Shown here one piece after another: positions 10,861 to 20,060 of a stretch of DNA of 52,463 bases. The position numbers and the translations under genes were made by a program. The DNA is from Gemmataceae bacterium (GTDB taxonomy: Bacteria > Planctomycetota > Planctomycetia > Gemmatales > Gemmataceae): positions 1 to 52,463 of the forward strand of contig JAIEPT010000187.1 of assembly GCA_019748295.1 (NCBI GenBank), in the 5' to 3' direction. The notes under the pieces were generated by a model, which saw nothing but the letters and a program-made list of their open reading frames with translations, had not been told where the DNA came from and made no database searches. Within the stretch, counting starts at the first letter, position 1; every line of letters starts with the position of its first letter.

Positions 10861-10895
10861 CCCAGGGTTGGCGACCAACGGGAGCCAACCCTGGG
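10861..10895. repeat. 35-base palindrome, copy 1
   Basis: cccagggttggc, centre gaccaacggga, then gccaaccctggg. The 12-bp stem is perfect. Copies 2 to 5 are at 11233, 11399, 19862 and 19999. Confidence 0.9.
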
Positions 10896-10956: not shown

Positions 10957-11181
10957 TCGCTGGCCCAAATCTACGTTCACATCGTGTTTTCAACGAAGCA
11001 CCGAACGTCATGGCTGTCGGATGCGATCTTTCGAGGACACGTTCACGCATACCTTGCGAGGGCATGTCAAACACTGGGCAGCGCCGCGTTGGAAGTCGGA
11101 GGCGTCGCCGACCATGTGCATCTGCTGGTGCGACTAGGAAAGACGTCAAGCGTCTCCGACCTTAACCATGCGTGGGATTGA
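10957..11181 (+). pseudogene. IS200/IS605-type transposase remnant
   Basis: The frame encodes SLAQIYVHIVFSTKHRTSWL, then a degenerate middle, then LEVGGVADHVHLLVRLGKTS. The HVH of the HUH nuclease motif and the IYVHIVFSTKHR opening are characteristic of IS200-like transposases (Y1_Tnp). There is no start codon: the frame enters from repeat sequence at about 10950. It is also cut short by repeat sequence at about 11165, before the region where the catalytic Tyr would lie (a full protein is about 150 residues). Surrounding palindromes fit the subterminal hairpins such elements recognise. Almost certainly inactive. Confidence 0.8.
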
Positions 11182-11232: not shown

Positions 11233-11267
11233 CCCAGGGTTGGCGACCAACGGGAGCCAACCCTGGG
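11233..11267. repeat. 35-base palindrome, copy 2
   Basis: Identical to copy 1 and followed by the same word taggatgcc. Confidence 0.9.
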
Positions 11268-11398: not shown

Positions 11399-11433
11399 CC
11401 CAGGGTTGGCTCCCGATGGTCGCCAACCCTGGG
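11399..11433. repeat. 35-base palindrome, copy 3 (inverted)
   Basis: Same stem as copies 1 and 2 with the loop in the reverse sense (tcccgatggtc), so the element lies in the opposite orientation. Confidence 0.9.
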
Positions 11434-11618: not shown

Positions 11619-13544
11619 ATGCCTGGCCACGCCTGTCCTCGCTGCCGACGATTCAATCCGGAACCCGCGTATTTCTGCTGGTTCGACGGGATCGAGCTGC
11701 GCCCGCATGCCGGCGACGCTCAGAAGCTCGCGATCGAGTTCACCTTCCCCACGGGCCGTCGCGCTCGCACGTTCGAGGAACTGGCCCAAGCATGCCAGGA
11801 CGATTGGAACAGCGCTCGAGATCTCTTGCAGCAAGGCGCCTTTCGGCAATTCTTCGTCAGCTTGGGCCGCAATGATTTGGCGCAAAGAGCTGAAGAAGCC
11901 GCCCGCGAGACGAACGCGGATGTCGCCCTTGCACGATTCCTGCAAGCGCTCCCTGCGGCCAAGCATGCGCCGAAGCTTGATCTTCAGCCGCGCCGAATCT
12001 TCCTGGGGACGCTGGCTCCGGGCGAAACACGCTCGCTTCAAGCAACGCTGAAGAATCTCGGCGCCGGCATGCTGCAAGGCGCGATGACGGTGACGGACGG
12101 CGACGGCTGGATTCGCCTCGCCGATGCGGCCGATCCCAAGCGGTGCCTCGTCAACACGTCGAGCGATCAACGCGTCGGCATCGCCATCGACACGCGCGGC
12201 TTGCCGTCGGCTCAGTCGTATGCGGCCAAGCTCATGGTTGTCACCAACGGGGGAGTCGTCGAGTTGCCGGTCGGTTTCGATCTGGCGGCCCAGGCGTATC
12301 CCAAGGCGCCTTTTCAGGGGGCGAGCACGGCGCGCGAGTTGGCTGAGAAAATGCGGAAGCAGCCGAAAGCGGCGGGGCCGGCGCTCGAGTCCGGGGACAT
12401 CCAACGCTGGTTTGCGTCAAATGGCTGGAAGTATCCCGTCGAAGGCACGCCGGCCCGCGGGGTGGCGGGCGTGCAGCAGTTTTTCGAGGCGATGGGCCTG
12501 TCGCGTCCGCCGCTGATCCAGGTGACGCCGCGAACGCTCGAAGTGGGTTGCCGTTGGCCCGAGACGAAACGGGTTTCGTTCGCGCTGCAAACGACCTCGC
12601 GAAAATGGGTCTACGCCACGATCGCCAGCGACTCGACATGGCTGCGACCTGTCCAGCGCAATGTCGCCGGCCCGCAGCAGGCGGCGGTTGCCGTCGAGGT
12701 CGATTCGCGGCTTGCCGTTTCCAACGGAGCCGAGCCGCGCGGCGTCATCCATGTCACGGCCAACGGCGGTCAAAAGATCGCGGTGCCGGTGCAACTCGTC
12801 ATCGACGGAGCGCCACGGCCACGCAAGCCGCTTGGTTCCGTCACGCGCACGCTTGTTTGCATGATGCTGTTTCTGATGTTGCTTCGAATGGTGCTGATTC
12901 CGTTCGTCGACATGGGCGGCCGCAGTGAGATCGTTCGGCAAGCGGCGGTGAAGACAGGCCTCAACCTGGGTGCGACCAGCTTCTTGCACGAAATCGCAGG
13001 TTGGTTGCGGTTGCCGTGGGGCTCGATCCTCGCGGGTTCGGAAAGGCCGTTGCCTGAAGACATCGCCGGGGAAGGGCGCGTCGTGCCCGCGCGCGAATTT
13101 CGAGACTACTTCGCGGCCCGCTTCATTCGCGGCTTGGCCCTGTGGACTTTCTGGATCGGAGGTCCCGTCGGCGCGTACCTCGCCTGGCGTCGCGGAGGCG
13201 GGTCGAGCGATGCGTGGTGGGGTTTCGTCGCAGGCCTGCCGGCAGGAGCGATGGCGGCGGCGACGGTTGCTTCGCTTTTCCTCGTGTGCGAAACGGTCCC
13301 CCATATGATGTGGTCGGCAGTCTTCCGCTCCTGGACCGGCATTGCCGCGTGGACTGCATGGGCATTCATCGCCGTCCTCGGCTGGGGCCTGTGCGGGCTG
13401 GCGATCGGGCTGGGGATACTCCTGATCCCAGGCATGCGAGGCGCGGTTCTTCCCCCGGTCGCGGCGATGCTGGGCGGACTATTCGGCTTTTTCCGGCTGC
13501 GCGGGCTGGCGGCGATGTGTCGGGGCGAACTCGCATCGAATTGA
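11619..13544 (+). CDS. Zinc-ribbon, beta-domain, polytopic membrane protein (paralog 1)
   Basis: Encodes 641 residues. Residues 6-23 form a short ribbon, C6-PR-C9 then C20-WF-D23, with Asp in the usual fourth Cys position. Residues about 50-90 are helical (LAQACQDDWNSARDLL, FFVSLGRNDLA). Residues 110-205 and about 295-390 look like two Ig/ASH-like beta domains, separated by the motif WFASNGWKYPV and VQQFFEAMGL. From about residue 411 there is a hydrophobic helix (LVCMMLFLMLLRMVLIPFV), and from about 505 several more helices to the C-terminus. Every block up to the first helix has a counterpart in the 17045-19729 gene. The ribbon side is presumably cytoplasmic. No enzymatic motif; a scaffold or sensor is a guess. 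Confidence 0.85.
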   Translation: MPGHACPRCRRFNPEPAYFCWFDGIELRPHAGDAQKLAIEFTFPTGRRARTFEELAQACQDDWNSARDLLQQGAFRQFFVSLGRNDLAQRAEEAARETNADVALARFLQALPAAKHAPKLDLQPRRIFLGTLAPGETRSLQATLKNLGAGMLQGAMTVTDGDGWIRLADAADPKRCLVNTSSDQRVGIAIDTRGLPSAQSYAAKLMVVTNGGVVELPVGFDLAAQAYPKAPFQGASTARELAEKMRKQPKAAGPALESGDIQRWFASNGWKYPVEGTPARGVAGVQQFFEAMGLSRPPLIQVTPRTLEVGCRWPETKRVSFALQTTSRKWVYATIASDSTWLRPVQRNVAGPQQAAVAVEVDSRLAVSNGAEPRGVIHVTANGGQKIAVPVQLVIDGAPRPRKPLGSVTRTLVCMMLFLMLLRMVLIPFVDMGGRSEIVRQAAVKTGLNLGATSFLHEIAGWLRLPWGSILAGSERPLPEDIAGEGRVVPAREFRDYFAARFIRGLALWTFWIGGPVGAYLAWRRGGGSSDAWWGFVAGLPAGAMAAATVASLFLVCETVPHMMWSAVFRSWTGIAAWTAWAFIAVLGWGLCGLAIGLGILLIPGMRGAVLPPVAAMLGGLFGFFRLRGLAAMCRGELASN

Positions 13545-13859
13545 TCTCGATTTTCGGTTTCTCCAGGGGACAATGGTTCATGACTCGAAGCAGGTGAACG
13601 GATTTCCTCAACTTTCTCGACAGATCAAGGCGTTTTCGTTCGCCCGGCCCTTGCTGACCCCAAGGGCCTGTGTTACAAACGGCTACAGGATGGCGAGCCC
13701 GCCGGGAGATCCGCCCGTGCCGTCCCCTTCCCGTCTCGGATGACGGAACTTCGAGTCACGAAACCGCGACCTATGAAGGCGACTCGGCAATGCTTCAAGC
13801 AATGCCGGGCCCCGCGAGCGCCGAACGCCCCCTGTCCCATCACCCGAGGTTGTGCAGCG
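13545..13859. other. Intergenic stretch without recognised features
   Basis: These 315 bases separate paralog 1 from the vWA gene. I see no convincing frame, RNA or hairpin. An in-frame extension of the vWA gene reaches ATG 13740, but it encodes Arg/Pro/Cys-rich sequence with no family look, so I treat it as untranslated. Confidence 0.5.
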
Positions 13860-15140
13860 ATGACGGCCAAGATTCACGTCGAACGCATGATGCACCGCAA
13901 CAGCATCGCGGTTGCGGGCGAAACCGCCGCCAGCTACGCCCTGATCAAGCTCATCCCCACCGGCGAAATCCAAAAGCCGATGGGACTCAACCTGGCGCTC
14001 GTGCTCGACGTCTCGGGCTCCATGTATGAGGAAGACGGCACCGGCATCAGCCGACTGAAACGCATTCAAGACGCCGCCATCGACGCCCTGCAGAAACTGA
14101 AGCCCGACGACTCGATGACCATCGTCGCCTTCGCGCACAATGCGCTCGTGCTGCTGCCGCCGACCAAGGTTGCCGAGAAGGCGAAGATCGAAGACGTCAT
14201 CCGCAAGATCGACATGTACGACGTCGATCCCGGCGGAACCGCGATGAACGACGGCCTGCGGCTCGCCCTCGACGAAGTCGAGAAAACGTCCGGAGCCGGC
14301 AAGCTTTCGCAGATCATCGTTCTCACCGACGGCGAAACCTCGGGCGAGCACGAATGCCGCACCCTGGCCCAGCGTGCCGCCGATACGAAGATCGCCCTCA
14401 CCGTCATGGGCGTCGGCCTCGATTGGAAGGCGTCGCTCATCAAGGATCTCGCCAAGCTGTCGGGCGGCAAGTGGTACTACATCGACGTCAACAGCAAGAG
14501 CGAAGCGGAACGCATCTTCGTCGAAGAGTTCCAGCAGCTCGCCGCCGCCGGCTTCATGGATGTGCAAATGAAGCTGCGGCCCATGAAGGACATCAAGATC
14601 AAGCGCGTCCGCCAGGTCGTTCCCGAAATCAAGGAATTGAAGCTGGAAGAGCCGGAAGAACGAACGCTCGCCGCCACGCTCGGCACCTTGCAGAAGGACA
14701 ATTCGCCTCGCTTCGTGCTCGATTTGAGCCTGCCGAAACGGCCTGACGGCAAATACGTGATCGCGCAGATGGAAATCACCTACGACCTGGGCATGGGCGC
14801 CCGCGAGACGACGGGGCCGATCCCTCTCGAGATGACGTACACGGCCGCGGGGCATGGCTACATCAACGCGGAAGTGGCGAAGCACATCGACGAAGTGCAG
14901 ATCTTCGAGCTGAACAACAATCTTCAGCAGGCGATCTCCTCGAACAACGCCGAAGAAGTGCAGCGGGTGGCACAGGCGATCGAGAAGAAGGGGGAGCTGA
15001 TGGGCCCCCGCGCCGCCAAGAAGACGATGCTCGCCAAGCAGGTGCTGCAGGAAATCAACGCGGGCGGACGTGTGTCGAAGAAGACGCAGCTCGCGATGGA
15101 AGATTCGGCGCGCATGGCCGATTCGATGCCGACCAGCTGA
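13860..15140 (+). CDS. von Willebrand factor A domain protein
   Basis: Encodes 426 residues. ATG 13860 begins MTAKIHVERMMHRNSIAVAG. A complete MIDAS metal site is visible: D50-V-S52-G-S54 in LALVLDVSGSM, T127 in DPGGTAMND, and D157 in IIVLTDGE. Residues 230-335 form a beta-rich region (VQMKLRPMKDIKIKRVRQVV onward). Residues 350-400 are helical (VQIFELNNNLQQAISSNNAE and so on), as in planctomycete and cyanobacterial vWA proteins of the CoxE/TerY-like type. No signal peptide, so probably cytoplasmic. It is followed at 165 bases by the FHA gene; together they resemble phospho-dependent protein-interaction modules. Confidence 0.92.
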   Translation: MTAKIHVERMMHRNSIAVAGETAASYALIKLIPTGEIQKPMGLNLALVLDVSGSMYEEDGTGISRLKRIQDAAIDALQKLKPDDSMTIVAFAHNALVLLPPTKVAEKAKIEDVIRKIDMYDVDPGGTAMNDGLRLALDEVEKTSGAGKLSQIIVLTDGETSGEHECRTLAQRAADTKIALTVMGVGLDWKASLIKDLAKLSGGKWYYIDVNSKSEAERIFVEEFQQLAAAGFMDVQMKLRPMKDIKIKRVRQVVPEIKELKLEEPEERTLAATLGTLQKDNSPRFVLDLSLPKRPDGKYVIAQMEITYDLGMGARETTGPIPLEMTYTAAGHGYINAEVAKHIDEVQIFELNNNLQQAISSNNAEEVQRVAQAIEKKGELMGPRAAKKTMLAKQVLQEINAGGRVSKKTQLAMEDSARMADSMPTS

Positions 15141-15205
15141 GTCTTGCTCCCTCTCCGTCCGGGAGAGGGGAGAAATACCGTAGCCGTTCGCGTGACGAAG
15201 TCTGT

Positions 15206-15229
15206 GCAAGCCGGCCGGCGCCGGCTTGC
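15206..15229 (+). terminator. Hairpin after the vWA gene
   Basis: gcaagccggc (15206-15215) and gccggcttgc (15220-15229) form a perfect 10-bp stem with a 4-base loop, followed by ggctttcccttat. It lies after a short ccctctccgtccgggagagggg repeat at 15146-15172. Confidence 0.5.
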
Positions 15230-15305
15230 GGCTTTCCCTTATACCCCTTAGCAGGTCGCCACAGCGCGGCGACCCCGAGCACACGCTCCTGGAGGAACGT
15301 TCGAC

Positions 15306-16100
15306 ATGGTGAAGTGTCCCTTCTGCGGATTCGACAATGAAGACGGCGCTCTGTTCTGCGAACAGTGCAAGTCGGATCTAAGCAGCGTCCCCACGCCGGT
15401 CCACGCCCAACCGGTCCATGCGGAGGCGGTCCCCTTCGCCTACGCCGAGGCGATTCCGGTGGAGGCCATTGCCGTCGAAGCCGTTCCCGTGGAAGCAATT
15501 CCAATGGAGGCCCTCCCGGTCCAAGCACTGGAAGCCGAGCCCGTCGCCGCGGAAGCGATACCGGTGGAAGACGTGATCCCCGCGCCGCTGCCGCAACTCA
15601 CGATGCCGATCGACGAGTCGCCCGCCCCGACGCCCGCCCCGACGCCCGCCGTCGCTGCCGCCGCGGTGCATGCCGCGGCGATCCCGGCGGCTCCCGTCGC
15701 CCCGACGCCTCCTCCCGCACCCGCGGCGAACGCTCCTGCCGCCCCCGCCGCGGGCGGCGGCGTCCCCGCTGGAGCTCAGCTCAAGCTTGTCGTCCAGCGC
15801 GGTCTTCGCGTCGGCGTCGAGTTTCCGATCTATGCCGACTACAACTACATCGGCCGATCCGACGACAAGCCGGTGGACATCGACCTCGACGATCAGGAAG
15901 CCCCCGACCGCGTGTGGTGTTCCCGCCAGCACGCCGTCCTTCACTACGACGATTCGGCCGGCGTCCTGACGATCGAAGACCTCAACAGTTCCAACGGCAC
16001 TTACGTGAATCGTGCCCGCGTGTACCCGGGGCAGAAGGTCAGCCTCAGCGTGAACGACGTGATCCAGATCGGCACCGTCCACCTCAAGCTGAAGGCGTAA
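15306..16100 (+). CDS. Zinc-ribbon and FHA-domain protein with a long Ala/Pro/Glu linker
   Basis: Encodes 264 residues; GGAGG precedes the ATG by 10 bases. A classic four-Cys zinc ribbon is at the N-terminus (C4, C7, C18, C21). Residues 30-155 are a low-complexity linker built from repeats of the type AEAIPVEAIAVEAVPVEAIP, then Ala/Pro runs. Residues 158-264 are an FHA domain with the phosphothreonine-binding signature: GRS (183-185), SRQH (206-209) and NSSNGTYVN (227-235). FHA domains bind phosphothreonine peptides, so a Ser/Thr kinase elsewhere in the genome is expected. Context: it lies between the vWA gene and paralog 2. Confidence 0.93.
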   Translation: MVKCPFCGFDNEDGALFCEQCKSDLSSVPTPVHAQPVHAEAVPFAYAEAIPVEAIAVEAVPVEAIPMEALPVQALEAEPVAAEAIPVEDVIPAPLPQLTMPIDESPAPTPAPTPAVAAAAVHAAAIPAAPVAPTPPPAPAANAPAAPAAGGGVPAGAQLKLVVQRGLRVGVEFPIYADYNYIGRSDDKPVDIDLDDQEAPDRVWCSRQHAVLHYDDSAGVLTIEDLNSSNGTYVNRARVYPGQKVSLSVNDVIQIGTVHLKLKA

Positions 16101-16120
16101 GCCGCCCGGACCCCCGTTTA

Positions 16121-16157
16121 GCGAGGAGCCGCAGGCGACGCCGCGATGGCTCCTCGC
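16121..16157 (+). terminator. Hairpin after the FHA gene
   Basis: gcgaggagcc (16121-16130) and ggctcctcgc (16148-16157) form a perfect 10-bp stem 20 bases after the FHA stop codon. No T run, so it is a candidate only. Confidence 0.4.
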
Positions 16158-16180
16158 GAACGTGCGGCGGCCGTAGCGCG

Positions 16181-16878
16181 CTGTAGGGAACGCCCTCCGT
16201 GGCGTTCCGCCGAACTGGACGCGTCCGAAGGAATGCGTCCAACCGCCGCGGATGCCTCACGATCGCGGAGATATCATGCCCTTCCACGGCCCATCGCCGC
16301 AACGCCGCAATCACCGTCTCCCGACGGAAATCTACGCCTGCACCGGATACGAGTTTTTCTTCACCATCTGCGCCCGCGAACGCGGCGAACCGTTCCGCGA
16401 TGAAAAACTCGCACAGGAAGTCTGCGATTCGTTGATTTGGACGGCACGCAAATACGCTTGGCAGCTGTTCGGTTTCTGCCTCATGCCGGATCATTTTCAC
16501 TTCGCATGCTCGCTTACGCAAGCGAACACCAAGCAAGTGAATGCAGGCGGGCGAGGAACGGTCACCGAAGGGTTGCTCGACCACGTCGCGAGGTTCAAGA
16601 GTTTCACCACATCCAAGGCCTGGGCTCACGGAATCAAAGGACAACTTTGGCAGAAGAGCAGCTATGATCGCGTGCTCGATATGCCGTGGGCTTTTGAGGA
16701 CATCCTTCGATATGTTTTGGAGAATCCGGTGAGGCGTGGTTTAGTGGAGCGATGGGAAGATTGGCCGTACTCGCGAATCGTCGATCCTTGGTGAGGGTTC
16801 AAGGGCTTGCTGAAAGTTGGATACTATCTTTCGGACGCGTCCAGTTCGGCGGAACGCCGCGGAGGGCGTTCCCTACAG
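16181..16878. mobile_element. RAYT-carrying element with 49-bp inverted ends
   Basis: The left end 16181-16229 (beginning ctgtagggaacgccctccgt) and the right end 16830-16878 are reverse complements at 48 of 49 positions. Each end itself folds into an 8-bp hairpin (ggaacgcc / ggcgttcc). Between them lies one gene, an intact REP-associated tyrosine transposase. A solitary 30-base copy of the same end is at 41361-41390. This is the arrangement expected of a RAYT with its cognate REP hairpins in opposite orientation. It separates the FHA gene from paralog 2. Confidence 0.88.
16276..16794 (+). CDS. REP-associated tyrosine transposase (RAYT)
   Basis: Encodes about 172 residues. ATG 16276 has GGAG 5 bases upstream; an upstream ATG at 16252 is in frame. 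The HUH motif is H73-F-H75 in FCLMPDHFHF, and the candidate nucleophile is Y130 in WQKSSYDRVL. The end of the protein carries the RAYT-typical YVLENPVRRGLVERWEDW. These enzymes are single-strand DNA transposases of the IS200-like superfamily, thought to move REP hairpins. The reading frame is intact and both flanking hairpin ends are preserved, so it may be recent or still active. Confidence 0.9.
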   Translation: MPFHGPSPQRRNHRLPTEIYACTGYEFFFTICARERGEPFRDEKLAQEVCDSLIWTARKYAWQLFGFCLMPDHFHFACSLTQANTKQVNAGGRGTVTEGLLDHVARFKSFTTSKAWAHGIKGQLWQKSSYDRVLDMPWAFEDILRYVLENPVRRGLVERWEDWPYSRIVDPW

Positions 16879-17044
16879 TGCGTTACGCTGCCTGCAAGGG
16901 GTGAAGTCGAGATGAAGAAGCCCAGAAGGCGTCCGCGATTTTTTGGTCATCGCAGATCCTGATGAACTCGTGATCGAGGTTTTGCGAGCGGAAGCCGGAG
17001 CGACCTAACACGAATCGAAGCGAAATTCGGCAAGGATTGAGCCC

Positions 17045-19729
17045 ATGCCCCAAGTTTGCGGTCAGTGTTCGCGCGTCAATCCGCAGGATGCGGTCTACTG
17101 CTACTTCGACGGCATCTCGCTCGCCGGGCGCGGCGGCGGGCCGCTTCAAGCGGGGTCGCAGCTTTTCCCCACGCCGTTCGTGTTTCCCAACGGCGCCTCG
17201 TCCCGCAGTTTCGATCAACTCGCCCTGACCTGTCAGCAGCATTGGCCTCAGGCGGTCGATCTCCTCAAGCAAGGTTATCTCGGCTCGTTCTTCGGCGGCA
17301 TGGGCCGCGTCGATCTCGCCATGGCCGCCCAGGATGCCGCCAAGTATCCGGATGCGGATCGCGGGCTCGATCAGCTCCTCGCCAAGCTTCCGACGCAGGC
17401 TCTGCAAGCTCCGCGGCTTCAGGTCGAACCCACGATCGTCAACCTCGGCCAAATCAAAATCGGCGACGATCGCCAGGCCGAGCTGCACCTATCGAATCTT
17501 GGCATGCGGCTTCTCTATGGCTCGATCGCATCCACCGACAAATGGCTGCAGCTGGGCGATGCACCAGGGTTGCCGCAGAAAGTCTTTCAGTTCGGGACCG
17601 AAGCCACCATCCCCTTGCAGGTTCGTGGGCAGCATCTTCGCGCGGGCCTGAAGCCGCTCGAAGCGAAGCTGGCGGTGGATTCCAACGGCGGCACGGCCGA
17701 GATCATCATCCGCGCCGATGTGCCCCCGGCGCCGTTCGAGGGGCCGATCCTTCAGGGCGCCCTGAGCCCGCGGCAGGTGGCCGAGAAAGCGAAGGCGAAT
17801 CCCGCCGGCGCCGCCCCGCTCTTCGAGAAGGGGGACGTCTCGAAGTGGTTCGCCAAGAACGGCTGGACCTATCCCGTGAAAGGGCCTTCCGCCTCCGGCC
17901 TGGGAGCCGTGCAGCAGTTCTTCGAAGCCCTCGGCCTCGCCAAGGCGCCGAAGGTGAAGATCAACGTGAAGGAGATCGCGCTCACCGGCGATCCAGGCCA
18001 GGTGCTGACCCAAAACATTGAAGTGACGACCGAAGAAAAGAAGCCGGTTTACGCGTATGCCGTCGGCGAACAACCCTGGATCGACGGCACGAAGGTGAAG
18101 CTCGCGGGCCGCACGGCGACTATCACGGTCACGATCACGGTCCCCAATCGGCCCGGCGAAAAGATCGACACGAAGCTCACCGTGCATGGCAACGGAAACC
18201 AGCGGTTTCCCGTCCCGCTCAAGCTGACGATCACCGGAGAACCGCTCGCGTTCAGTCCGGTCGATGCGGACGAACCGATGTTCGTTCCGGATGCGGCCAA
18301 CGCAGGGCCGCTCGTCCCCGAGCCTGTATTCACCCCCGCCGGCGCGGGCGTGGATGCATCGTCCTTCGAGTTCGAGGCCGCCGCCCCCGTTCAACCGAAG
18401 GTCTCATCCTCGCCGACTCCTGCCGCACCGACAGCGACGACCGCACCCGCCCCAGCACGCAGCAATCGCCAGGGGATCCCTTGGTGGGCGCATAGCATCC
18501 CCGCATTCCTGCTGCTTCTCGTCCTCGGGGGGACATTGGTCCGCGACCTCTTCTTGCCGCCTCCCAGTCAAGCGGGCGACCCGGTCGAAAGGGAGCCGCG
18601 CATCGGCGTCACCTTCGACTACGCCTTCAACCCCGGCGACAAAGCCGGCAAGTCGATGACGTTCGGCATCCAGGCTTATGAACCTGGAAAGGGCAAGGCC
18701 GCCGGCGCGACGAATCTGACGTTCGCCTTCAACGGCTCCACCAATTCCGCCATGGCCATGGTGGACCGCAAGCCATTCGTCTTCGGCGACGTACAATTCG
18801 GCAGGCCGCCCGAGAGGCCTCAATCCTCCGGCAAATACGGCGGCTACTCGACCACCTATCGCCACACCAATTCACGCGTCGCAATCACGCAGATCGTCGA
18901 GATCGTGCCCGGCAATCCCATTGAAATCTCCGGCGGCGAGTTCGTGCGTCCCCTCGATACCTGCCTTGTCCGCTATGTGCTCGAAAACGAAGACGCCAAG
19001 GAGCACACCGTGGGCTTCCGCTTCGTGCTCGACACCTACATCGGCAACAACGACGGCGTTCCGTTCGCGGTGCCGGGAAAGGCCGAGCTGGTGAAGTCGG
19101 CGGATTTCGATGGGGCCAGCCAAGTGCCTGATTACATCCAGGCGATCGAATCGCCCGAGCTGCGCAGCCCCGGCATCATCGCCCAGCTCAATCTGCGTCT
19201 CAACGAGAAGTACGAGGCGCCGAGCCGGGTCGTGTTGACCGAATGGAATCTGGATCTGCAGAAGAAATTCGAATTGCCGTTCGAGACGAAGGCGAAGGGG
19301 AAGAAGTTCGTGGTTCCGCCGATCGGCAAGGATTCGGCCGTCGTCATGTGCTGGGACGAAAAGCCGCTCCCGCGCGGCGGCAAGCGGACGCTCGCTTTCT
19401 CCTACGGCGTAGGCAATCTTTCGACGTCGGCGGGGATCGGCATCCTCAATCCGGGTTCCGTCGTCGCGGGCCGCGAGTTCGCTCTTACCGCAGTCGTGCA
19501 AGATCCGACGCCGAACCAGAAACTCGGCATCCAGGTTCCCGAAGGCTTCCGCCTCGCGGATTCCACGCCCGCGATGCAACCCGTTCCCCAGGGCGAAAAG
19601 GGCCGGCCCAGCCCCGTCACCTGGCGACTTACCCCCGCGACGACAGGCCGATTCCCGATCCGAGTCAGCACCTCCGAAGGCCTCACGACGGAGCGCAAGA
19701 TCTCCGTGAGCCGGGTGCCCTTGTTCTGA
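17045..19729 (+). CDS. Zinc-ribbon, beta-domain, single-pass membrane protein (paralog 2)
   Basis: Encodes 894 residues. The N-terminal ribbon is C5-GQ-C8 and C19-YF-D22, again with Asp in the fourth position. The helical block LALTCQQHWPQAVDLLKQG and FFGGMGRVDLA, the motif WFAKNGWTYPV and AVQQFFEALGL, and the two beta domains all match paralog 1. An Ala/Pro-rich linker (about 430-475) leads to one transmembrane helix (about 483-505, HSIPAFLLLLVLGGTLV). The remaining 390 residues are a large exported beta-rich region (GVTFDYAFNPGDKAG, AITQIVEIVPGNPIEISG, VGFRFVLDTYIGNNDGVPF). So the two paralogs share the cytoplasmic part and differ in the membrane/exported part. No catalytic motif recognised. 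Confidence 0.87.
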   Translation: MPQVCGQCSRVNPQDAVYCYFDGISLAGRGGGPLQAGSQLFPTPFVFPNGASSRSFDQLALTCQQHWPQAVDLLKQGYLGSFFGGMGRVDLAMAAQDAAKYPDADRGLDQLLAKLPTQALQAPRLQVEPTIVNLGQIKIGDDRQAELHLSNLGMRLLYGSIASTDKWLQLGDAPGLPQKVFQFGTEATIPLQVRGQHLRAGLKPLEAKLAVDSNGGTAEIIIRADVPPAPFEGPILQGALSPRQVAEKAKANPAGAAPLFEKGDVSKWFAKNGWTYPVKGPSASGLGAVQQFFEALGLAKAPKVKINVKEIALTGDPGQVLTQNIEVTTEEKKPVYAYAVGEQPWIDGTKVKLAGRTATITVTITVPNRPGEKIDTKLTVHGNGNQRFPVPLKLTITGEPLAFSPVDADEPMFVPDAANAGPLVPEPVFTPAGAGVDASSFEFEAAAPVQPKVSSSPTPAAPTATTAPAPARSNRQGIPWWAHSIPAFLLLLVLGGTLVRDLFLPPPSQAGDPVEREPRIGVTFDYAFNPGDKAGKSMTFGIQAYEPGKGKAAGATNLTFAFNGSTNSAMAMVDRKPFVFGDVQFGRPPERPQSSGKYGGYSTTYRHTNSRVAITQIVEIVPGNPIEISGGEFVRPLDTCLVRYVLENEDAKEHTVGFRFVLDTYIGNNDGVPFAVPGKAELVKSADFDGASQVPDYIQAIESPELRSPGIIAQLNLRLNEKYEAPSRVVLTEWNLDLQKKFELPFETKAKGKKFVVPPIGKDSAVVMCWDEKPLPRGGKRTLAFSYGVGNLSTSAGIGILNPGSVVAGREFALTAVVQDPTPNQKLGIQVPEGFRLADSTPAMQPVPQGEKGRPSPVTWRLTPATTGRFPIRVSTSEGLTTERKISVSRVPLF

Positions 19730-19834: not shown

Positions 19835-20060
19835 TTACGCCAACGGCGTTCCAGCGCGCAGCCCAGGGCTAGCGACCGCAGGGAGCCTACCCTGGGTAAC
19901 GCGAGAAGAAAAACCGCCTACCCCAACGGGGTTGAAGCCACGGATACCAACGAGTTGCTCGAACCCCTTTGGGGTACCTACGGTTATTGAAACGATCACC
20001 CAGGGTAGGCTCCCTGCGGTCGCCAACCCTGGGCTGTGGGCTGTAACGCCGTTGGCGTAA
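19835..20060. repeat. 226-bp nested inverted repeat with two 35-base palindromes
   Basis: Outer arms ttacgccaacggcgtt (19835-19850) and aacgccgttggcgtaa (20045-20060) are perfect complements. Inside lie copies 4 and 5 of the 35-base palindrome in opposite orientation (19862-19896, 19999-20033), and an innermost pair around accccaacggggttgaa and aacccctttggggta. It fills the gap before ndh. Confidence 0.88.

Follow-up and report, generated by a model that had tools for sequence, protein, structure and literature searches.

A conserved gene block of Gemmatales that joins a predicted ArnB-like vWA protein and a zinc-ribbon-FHA protein to a family of predicted membrane scaffolds

Gene content of the block

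We analysed a stretch of 52,463 nucleotides from a Gemmataceae bacterium (contig JAIEPT010000187.1 of assembly GCA_019748295.1; 'the window'), in which a block of four plus-strand genes encodes two paralogous scaffold proteins (P1 and P2), a vWA protein and a zinc-ribbon-FHA protein. All four were verified as open reading frames (ORFs). An earlier note on this DNA had placed four plus-strand genes in one block, and its ORFs of 641, 264 and 894 aa were borne out. The vWA ORF opens at 13740, and according to its homologues it starts at the ATG at 13860, which gives a protein of 426 aa.

11619..13544, plus strand: P1, scaffold paralogue 1, 641 aa, with a ribbon, a helical and beta core and a C-terminus with multiple transmembrane (TM) segments
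13860..15140, plus strand: vWA protein, predicted to be ArnB-like, 426 aa, with a predicted split beta-sandwich, a vWA domain with an intact metal-ion-dependent adhesion site (MIDAS) and C-terminal helices
15306..16100, plus strand: zinc-ribbon-FHA protein, 264 aa, with an ArnA-like layout
17045..19729, plus strand: P2, scaffold/receptor paralogue 2, 894 aa (ORF, alignment with P1, structure model)

The matches to VWA_2 (66.5 bits) and FHA (65.9 bits) exceed the Pfam cut-offs. For P1 and P2 no Pfam model scored above its cut-off, and the weak matches were mostly to Ig-like models (BACON_2, HYDIN, Cep192_D6, DUF5717_N).

The vWA and zinc-ribbon-FHA proteins

14868..15116, plus strand: C-terminal helical region of the vWA protein, the apparent counterpart of the phosphorylated RHB of ArnB (alignment, model)
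15315..15368, plus strand: zinc ribbon of the FHA protein, C4-x2-C7-x10-C18-x2-C21 (29 of 29 alignment rows)
15849..16073, plus strand: FHA domain (Pfam; alignment)

The MIDAS residues D50, S52, S54, T127 and D157 of the vWA protein are invariant in all 53 rows of its alignment, in agreement with the intact MIDAS described before, and the protein of the window is 54-81% identical to those of 39 other genomes. The vWA protein is predicted to have an ArnB-like fold, as its model follows the three-part architecture of ArnB over nearly the whole length, judged by the order of secondary-structure elements and by matches to 4FX5, 8S05 and 5A8J. The best structural match, over the full length and at 16-17% identity, was the Catenulispora acidiphila vWA protein caci_2163 (4FX5). 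ArnB_C (IPR040929) was absent from the Pfam list of the vWA protein to E 1, a list drawn from a library copy that may not hold that model. Within the C-terminal helical region, the invariant residues Thr389 (15024-15026) and Thr409 (15084-15086) are candidate phosphorylation sites.

The zinc-ribbon-FHA protein shows the layout of ArnA in 29 of 29 alignment rows, that is, an N-terminal CX2CX10CX2C ribbon, a linker and an FHA domain with the residues that bind phosphothreonine; R184, S206, R207, H209, N230, G231 and T232 are invariant throughout. The ribbon cysteines of ArnA (C21/C24/C35/C38) have a spacing identical to that of the present ribbon (PMC12852372). Two multi-TM FHA proteins encoded elsewhere in the same genome, on contigs C337 and C385, by eye lack the serine of SRxH and the asparagine of NGT in their FHA domains, so that of these proteins just the ribbon-FHA protein has the canonical pocket. 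A further multi-TM FHA match, the third in this genome, is on C315.

The vWA protein also resembles the Sec23/Sec24 core of COPII, in which a vWA domain is likewise inserted in a beta-sandwich and combined with a helical domain, and which contains a zinc ribbon (PMC12852372). It differs from this core by the absence of a gelsolin domain and by the placement of the ribbon on separate proteins: Pfam gave neither a ribbon nor a gelsolin match to E 1 in the vWA ORF, and the 426-aa model ends with helices. The Foldseek TM-score for this resemblance was about 0.45-0.52 over the query.

A family of predicted membrane scaffolds

11634..11687, plus strand: zinc-ribbon-like motif of P1, C6-x2-C9-x10-C20-x2-D23 (sequence, alignment A4)
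17057..17110, plus strand: ribbon of P2, C5-x2-C8-x10-C19-x2-D22 (alignment A4, pattern search)
17405..17728, plus strand: beta-domain 1 of P2, residues 121-228, ASH/HYDIN-like (structure model, fold search)
17951..18235, plus strand: beta-domain 2 of P2, residues 303-397, ASH/HYDIN-like (structure model, fold search)
18482..18553, plus strand: single predicted TM helix of P2, residues 480-503 (model, hydropathy)
18587..19726, plus strand: post-TM region of P2, with a beta-supersandwich-like domain (515-790) followed by an Ig-like domain (795-891) (model, fold search)

P1 and P2 are paralogues (E 7e-67), and the sequence motifs quoted in the earlier note as common to both were verified as present. 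Its statement that the two proteins differ 'only after the membrane segment' has to be given up, because ahead of this segment they share just 33% identity (over 415 aa) and P2 contains an extra linker (residues 406-477, modelled with low confidence). The zinc ribbon that it assigned to both paralogues is indeed a common N-terminal motif, but the fourth position holds Asp and not Cys, so that the scaffold ribbon consists of three Cys and one Asp (C-x2-C-x10-C-x2-D). C5, C8, C19, D22 and G23 of P2 are invariant in all 52 rows of alignment A4, which represents 52 of the 61 listed scaffold members (the nine omitted comprised fragments, three close copies and some additional copies of P2). By pattern search, the Asp was found in 76 of 77 scaffold loci, with one locus lacking the pattern; among the 120 database matches listed, 117 have Asp and 1 has Cys at this place, and the pattern is missing in 2.

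P2 is modelled as a ribbon followed by ASH-like domains, a single TM helix and a galactose-mutarotase-like domain. The post-TM region, for which Pfam gave no match to E 0.1, is probably extracytoplasmic. We name the beta-domains ASH-'like' because fold matches of this type that span both domains have a high root-mean-square deviation (rmsd 12-16); residues 121-228 alone gave an rmsd of 1.9-2.3. A fold search of P2 against viral models yielded just scattered matches of the beta-domains with low TM-scores. P1 has hydropathy peaks at 412-430, 539-557, 584-602 and 609-627. Homology between its TM region and the multi-TM FHA protein of C337 was considered and found no support (best score 19.6 bits at E 0.071). 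The motif LDTxIGxNDGxPF, considered as a universal mark of the P2 C-terminus, was not used, because strict matching finds it in 30 of the 113 long homologues among the matches listed and in 26 of 46 long loci.

The genome of the window has four scaffold genes: P1, P2, P3 (851 aa, on C337, adjoining a multi-TM FHA protein) and P4 (on C383). P4 is a 1358-aa open frame (L005 4061-8137, G000:C383) whose long C-terminal part has a PPC match under the cut-off. The C-terminal half of P2 matches neither P3 nor P4. The C-terminus of P3, which we take to recall ThuA/glutamine-amidotransferase-like folds, gave nothing in Pfam to E 0.1.

These folds and C-termini bear on the possibility that P1 and P2 are structural, with their ASH/HYDIN-like domains anchoring a membrane or envelope scaffold which vWA and FHA proteins assemble and phosphorylation merely tunes. 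The beta-domains do resemble those of ASH/HYDIN assemblies, for example CEP192 and the proteins of the central pair, and the vWA architecture is also that of COPII Sec23/24. However, ASH-like folds are common, and the C-termini of the paralogues are diverse in a receptor-like manner (multi-TM in P1; unmatched by the C-terminal half of P2 in P3 and P4). We consider a structural role distinctly unlikely.

In a tree built from alignment A4 (52 rows), branches with 100/100 support part P1-type from P2-type rows, and P1 falls on the 18-row side of one of them. Context labels set by hand (beside the vWA gene upstream, downstream, or other) require 9 changes in all on this tree, and linkage to the vWA gene has therefore been gained or lost repeatedly, or is hidden by contig ends.

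The scaffold core is also found in fusions. In three genomes of a sister family (L066-L068), a vWA gene adjoins genes for proteins that have an FHA domain at the N-terminus and multiple TM segments at the C-terminus; the presence of the scaffold core between these parts was verified in L068 and L066. One protein from a distant genus of the phylum (L193 4895-7042) combines a protein kinase domain (29-283) with the scaffold core (329-506; hhalign probability 99.2). Apart from the operon, these kinase-core and FHA-core-TM fusions are an independent link between the scaffold core and phosphorylation parts. In the other three genomes of the latter genus, open frames of 717-727 aa match this core, and small membrane genes close to the L193 fusion look TolQ/ExbB-like by eye. 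At L066 9383-14062, an HSP70-vWA fusion and a second HSP70 lie beside the FHA-core-TM/vWA pair.

Distribution and gene order in relatives

To part orthologues from general domain matches, we chose E cut-offs of 1e-20 (scaffold), 1e-80 (vWA), 1e-40 (PP2C) and 1e-90 (kinase). Among 102 genomes of the order, the scaffold family was found in 43, with 1-5 copies per genome, the vWA protein in 40, always as a single match, PP2C in 48 and the kinase in 40. All 40 vWA genomes carry scaffolds (Fisher p 3.3e-25; kinase p 4.4e-20, PP2C p 5.8e-21), where the p values have to be read with the kinship of the genomes in mind, since the draws are not independent. A looser cut-off was examined for the vWA protein alone: at E 1e-25, 198 genomes of the class gave 20 matches, 19 in the order and one outside it. 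The vWA cut-off is not delicate, because the matches in the order are all at 1e-150 or better and the lone outsider is at 6e-29. Five genomes of the family that consist of a single contig (G001, G008, G031, G349, G350) gave neither a scaffold nor a vWA match. Outside the order, three relatives in the class have weak scaffold matches, and a partial scaffold match was obtained in 4 of 293 other genomes of the phylum, all of one genus.

Two database searches, each scoring the candidates with most words in common (7995 and 7997), listed the best 120 of 869 and the best 120 of 1383 matches. These homologues come mostly from Gemmataceae/Gemmatales and other metagenome-assembled genomes of Planctomycetota. 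A few contigs are labelled Chloroflexi, Acidobacteriaceae, Opitutaceae or Kuenenia, labels that we suspect to be binning or naming errors.

The earlier note had reasoned that homologues scattered at random would speak against a functional block. On the contrary, 34 of 40 genomes have a same-strand scaffold gene no more than 6 kb from the vWA gene (on its downstream side in 32 genomes, on its upstream side in 12 and on both in 10), and the genome searches and these gene-order counts lead us to reject a chance neighbourhood. The remaining vWA genomes are G040, G041, G366, G042, G025 and G010; in G366 and G042 the vWA gene is near a contig end. The vWA gene is present in 29 of the 77 scaffold loci. 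It has the ribbon-FHA gene as its neighbour in 28 of them, and only in L166, where it extends to the end of the contig, does it not. Of the remaining loci, many represent scaffold copies from elsewhere in the genomes, and many end early. A natural variant, FHA-P2-kinase-PP2C with no vWA gene beside it, occurs at L157 7343-13913 (G021) and could show which step needs the vWA protein.

Kinase and phosphatase neighbours

In other genomes, the block is joined by enzymes of Ser/Thr phosphorylation, as had been anticipated. A gene for a Hanks-type kinase is found no further than 8 kb from the vWA gene in 18 of 40 genomes, 15 of the 40 have a PP2C gene no further than 10 kb away, and for 35 of 41 kinase matches a PP2C gene was found within 4 kb on the same strand. 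The order vWA, FHA, P2, multi-TM FHA protein, kinase, PP2C is present in 11 of the 77 scaffold loci, five of which (L098, L100, L103, L104, L108) show the longer order multi-TM FHA protein, P1, vWA, FHA, P2, multi-TM FHA protein, kinase, PP2C. In the genome of the window, the genes for a multi-TM FHA protein, a kinase and PP2C are contiguous on another contig, C385 (L191 8920-13892). The C385 kinase, encoded at G000:C385:40923-42362, has kept VAIK, HRDLKPDN and DFG and has zinc ribbons. At its N-terminus the PP2C protein has a CxxC...CxxC stretch; a kinase-like segment, where a pattern search found neither HRD nor DFG, and the PP2C domain follow. Two kinases were examined for hydropathy and showed no TM peak.

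The TerY-P triad is another set of vWA, ribbon kinase and PP2C neighbours, and the same trio is found here. The block could accordingly be a TerY-P-like or conflict-type system for stress or anti-phage regulation, with P1 and P2 as membrane platform or effector. The C385 kinase is also a strong match to the PD-T4-6 kinase models of PADLOC (E 7e-53), but such a model would be matched by many protein kinases. PADLOC gave matches for the kinase and the PP2C protein only, and none up to E 0.01 for P1, vWA, FHA and P2; the Pfam-scanned neighbours contained no toxin-like domain, with no search aimed at effectors made. This explanation appears unlikely to us.

A mobile element within the block

16188..16214, plus strand: REP (repetitive extragenic palindrome) copy upstream of the RAYT gene (pattern search)
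16252..16794, plus strand: RAYT-type transposase (REP-associated tyrosine transposase), a mobile-element gene outside the module (NF047646, 79.5 bits, cut-off 80)
16845..16871, minus strand: inverted REP copy downstream of the RAYT gene (pattern search)

The RAYT gene between FHA and P2 had been overlooked in the earlier note. It is probably a local insertion, because the spacing between FHA and P2 is enlarged (944 bases, versus 9 to 234 in the 18 relatives measured) and no RAYT relative was found in the loci scanned, the window itself apart. The REP pattern occurs 120 times per strand of the genome (up to 2 mismatches), and its reversed control 0 times. By eye, REP copies are often inverted pairs about 146 bp apart, and window positions 16180-16880 thus look like a REPIN-RAYT-like system within the signalling block. 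Upstream of P1 there are three copies of a 35-bp near-palindrome (10861-10895, 11233-11267, 11399-11433; up to 1 mismatch; chance expectation 0), with similar palindrome arms seen by eye near 19860-20040. Just upstream of P1, positions 10964-11140 resemble, by eye, the remnant of an IS200-type transposase.

The RAYT gene has entered the block, and the genes for the multi-TM FHA protein, kinase and PP2C lie apart from it in this genome, as might be seen if the block were the remnant of a former single operon whose products now act separately. Against such decay, the parts are kept, their key residues are intact and the vWA protein shares 54-81% identity between the window and the 39 other genomes; we regard a remnant as highly improbable.

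Comparison with known systems

The closest parallel is ArnA-ArnB of Sulfolobus (PDB 8S05, 5A8I, 5A8J), so that the view that no named system is alike no longer stands: the vWA/FHA pair is predicted to share its architecture with archaeal ArnB/ArnA (PMC12852372). Shared are the zinc-ribbon-FHA protein with its C-x2-C-x10-C-x2-C spacing, a tripartite vWA partner with a MIDAS (here on a predicted model), adjacent genes and a Hanks-type kinase in the pathway. Unlike ArnAB, which uses PP2A, the present block is bacterial and linked to membrane scaffolds and PP2C; the vWA protein has about 16% identity to ArnB in the structural alignment, and its phospho-sites are candidates only.

In the type VI secretion threonine phosphorylation pathway, PpkA-PppA-Fha1, a membrane-spanning kinase, a PP2C and an FHA protein also occur together, whereas the kinases examined here lack a TM peak. 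According to the parts of PMC7159879 available to us, actinobacterial GAP1-N2 systems have a standalone vWA protein, an active zinc-ribbon kinase and PP2C as neighbours, as found here in relatives. Compared with what those parts describe, the present system has in addition an FHA protein, two scaffold paralogues and a multi-TM FHA protein, and in the genome of the window the kinase and PP2C genes are not contiguous with the vWA gene. The vWA/FHA architecture and, as far as those parts go, the vWA/ribbon-kinase/PP2C neighbourhood are therefore already known; for the scaffold/receptor family and its coupling to the pair we found no description. In the open PMC literature, to which our search was confined, neither the family nor a module of ArnAB type in Planctomycetota came up.

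Proposed mechanism and implications

The earlier view of a membrane unit under Ser/Thr-kinase control stands insofar as the module is conserved, membrane-linked and associated with Ser/Thr-phosphorylation parts; that it senses or tethers something at the membrane is still conjecture. We think it somewhat probable that the block is an ArnAB-like phospho-switch wired to membrane receptors, in which P1 and P2 report to the single-copy vWA protein as hub and the ribbon-FHA protein is the reader. Beyond gene linkage, the steps of this switch are conjectural. The hub would bind the ribbon-FHA protein loosely via its ribbon and, after phosphorylation, tightly via its FHA domain. The linked zinc-ribbon kinase may phosphorylate threonines of the hub's C-terminal helices, and the PP2C protein may reverse this. 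P1 and P2 would dock through their own ribbons of the same spacing or through their ASH-like domains, and binding of a glycan or glycan-like ligand by the galactose-mutarotase-like domain of P2 outside the membrane could alter the occupancy of the hub. Scaffolds and ribbon-FHA protein might compete for the hub or share it, with the kinase/PP2C pair setting its state. Such use of the hub is suggested by the single hub match per genome versus 1-5 scaffolds that are C-terminally diverse, and by the fact that ArnB docks a ribbon of exactly this spacing and that the scaffolds carry such a ribbon.

A more far-reaching version, which is tentative and rather doubtful in our view, could be called 'many receptors, one hub'. 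Here, TM scaffolds with a common cytosolic ribbon-ASH platform and interchangeable C-termini (galactose-mutarotase-like, multi-TM, PPC-bearing and others) would all plug their C-x2-C-x10-C-x2-D ribbon into the single-copy ArnB-/Sec23/24-like hub, whose phospho-tail, written by the kinase, would select between a receptor ribbon and the ribbon-FHA output.

Gemmataceae have about 100-150 Ser/Thr kinases per proteome (PMC11032199), and in the parts of that paper available to us FHA is mentioned solely as a kinase-associated domain. The present analysis singles out one orthologous kinase with a likely substrate, a reader and a likely membrane input. If the proposed switch is real, ArnAB signalling, which in the literature covered has been studied in Sulfolobus and its kin, would gain a parallel in bacteria for which every part has a candidate, from receptors and hub to reader, kinase and phosphatase. 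Should many receptors indeed share one hub, bacterial receptor signalling would have a new class that differs from both two-component and PASTA-kinase systems.
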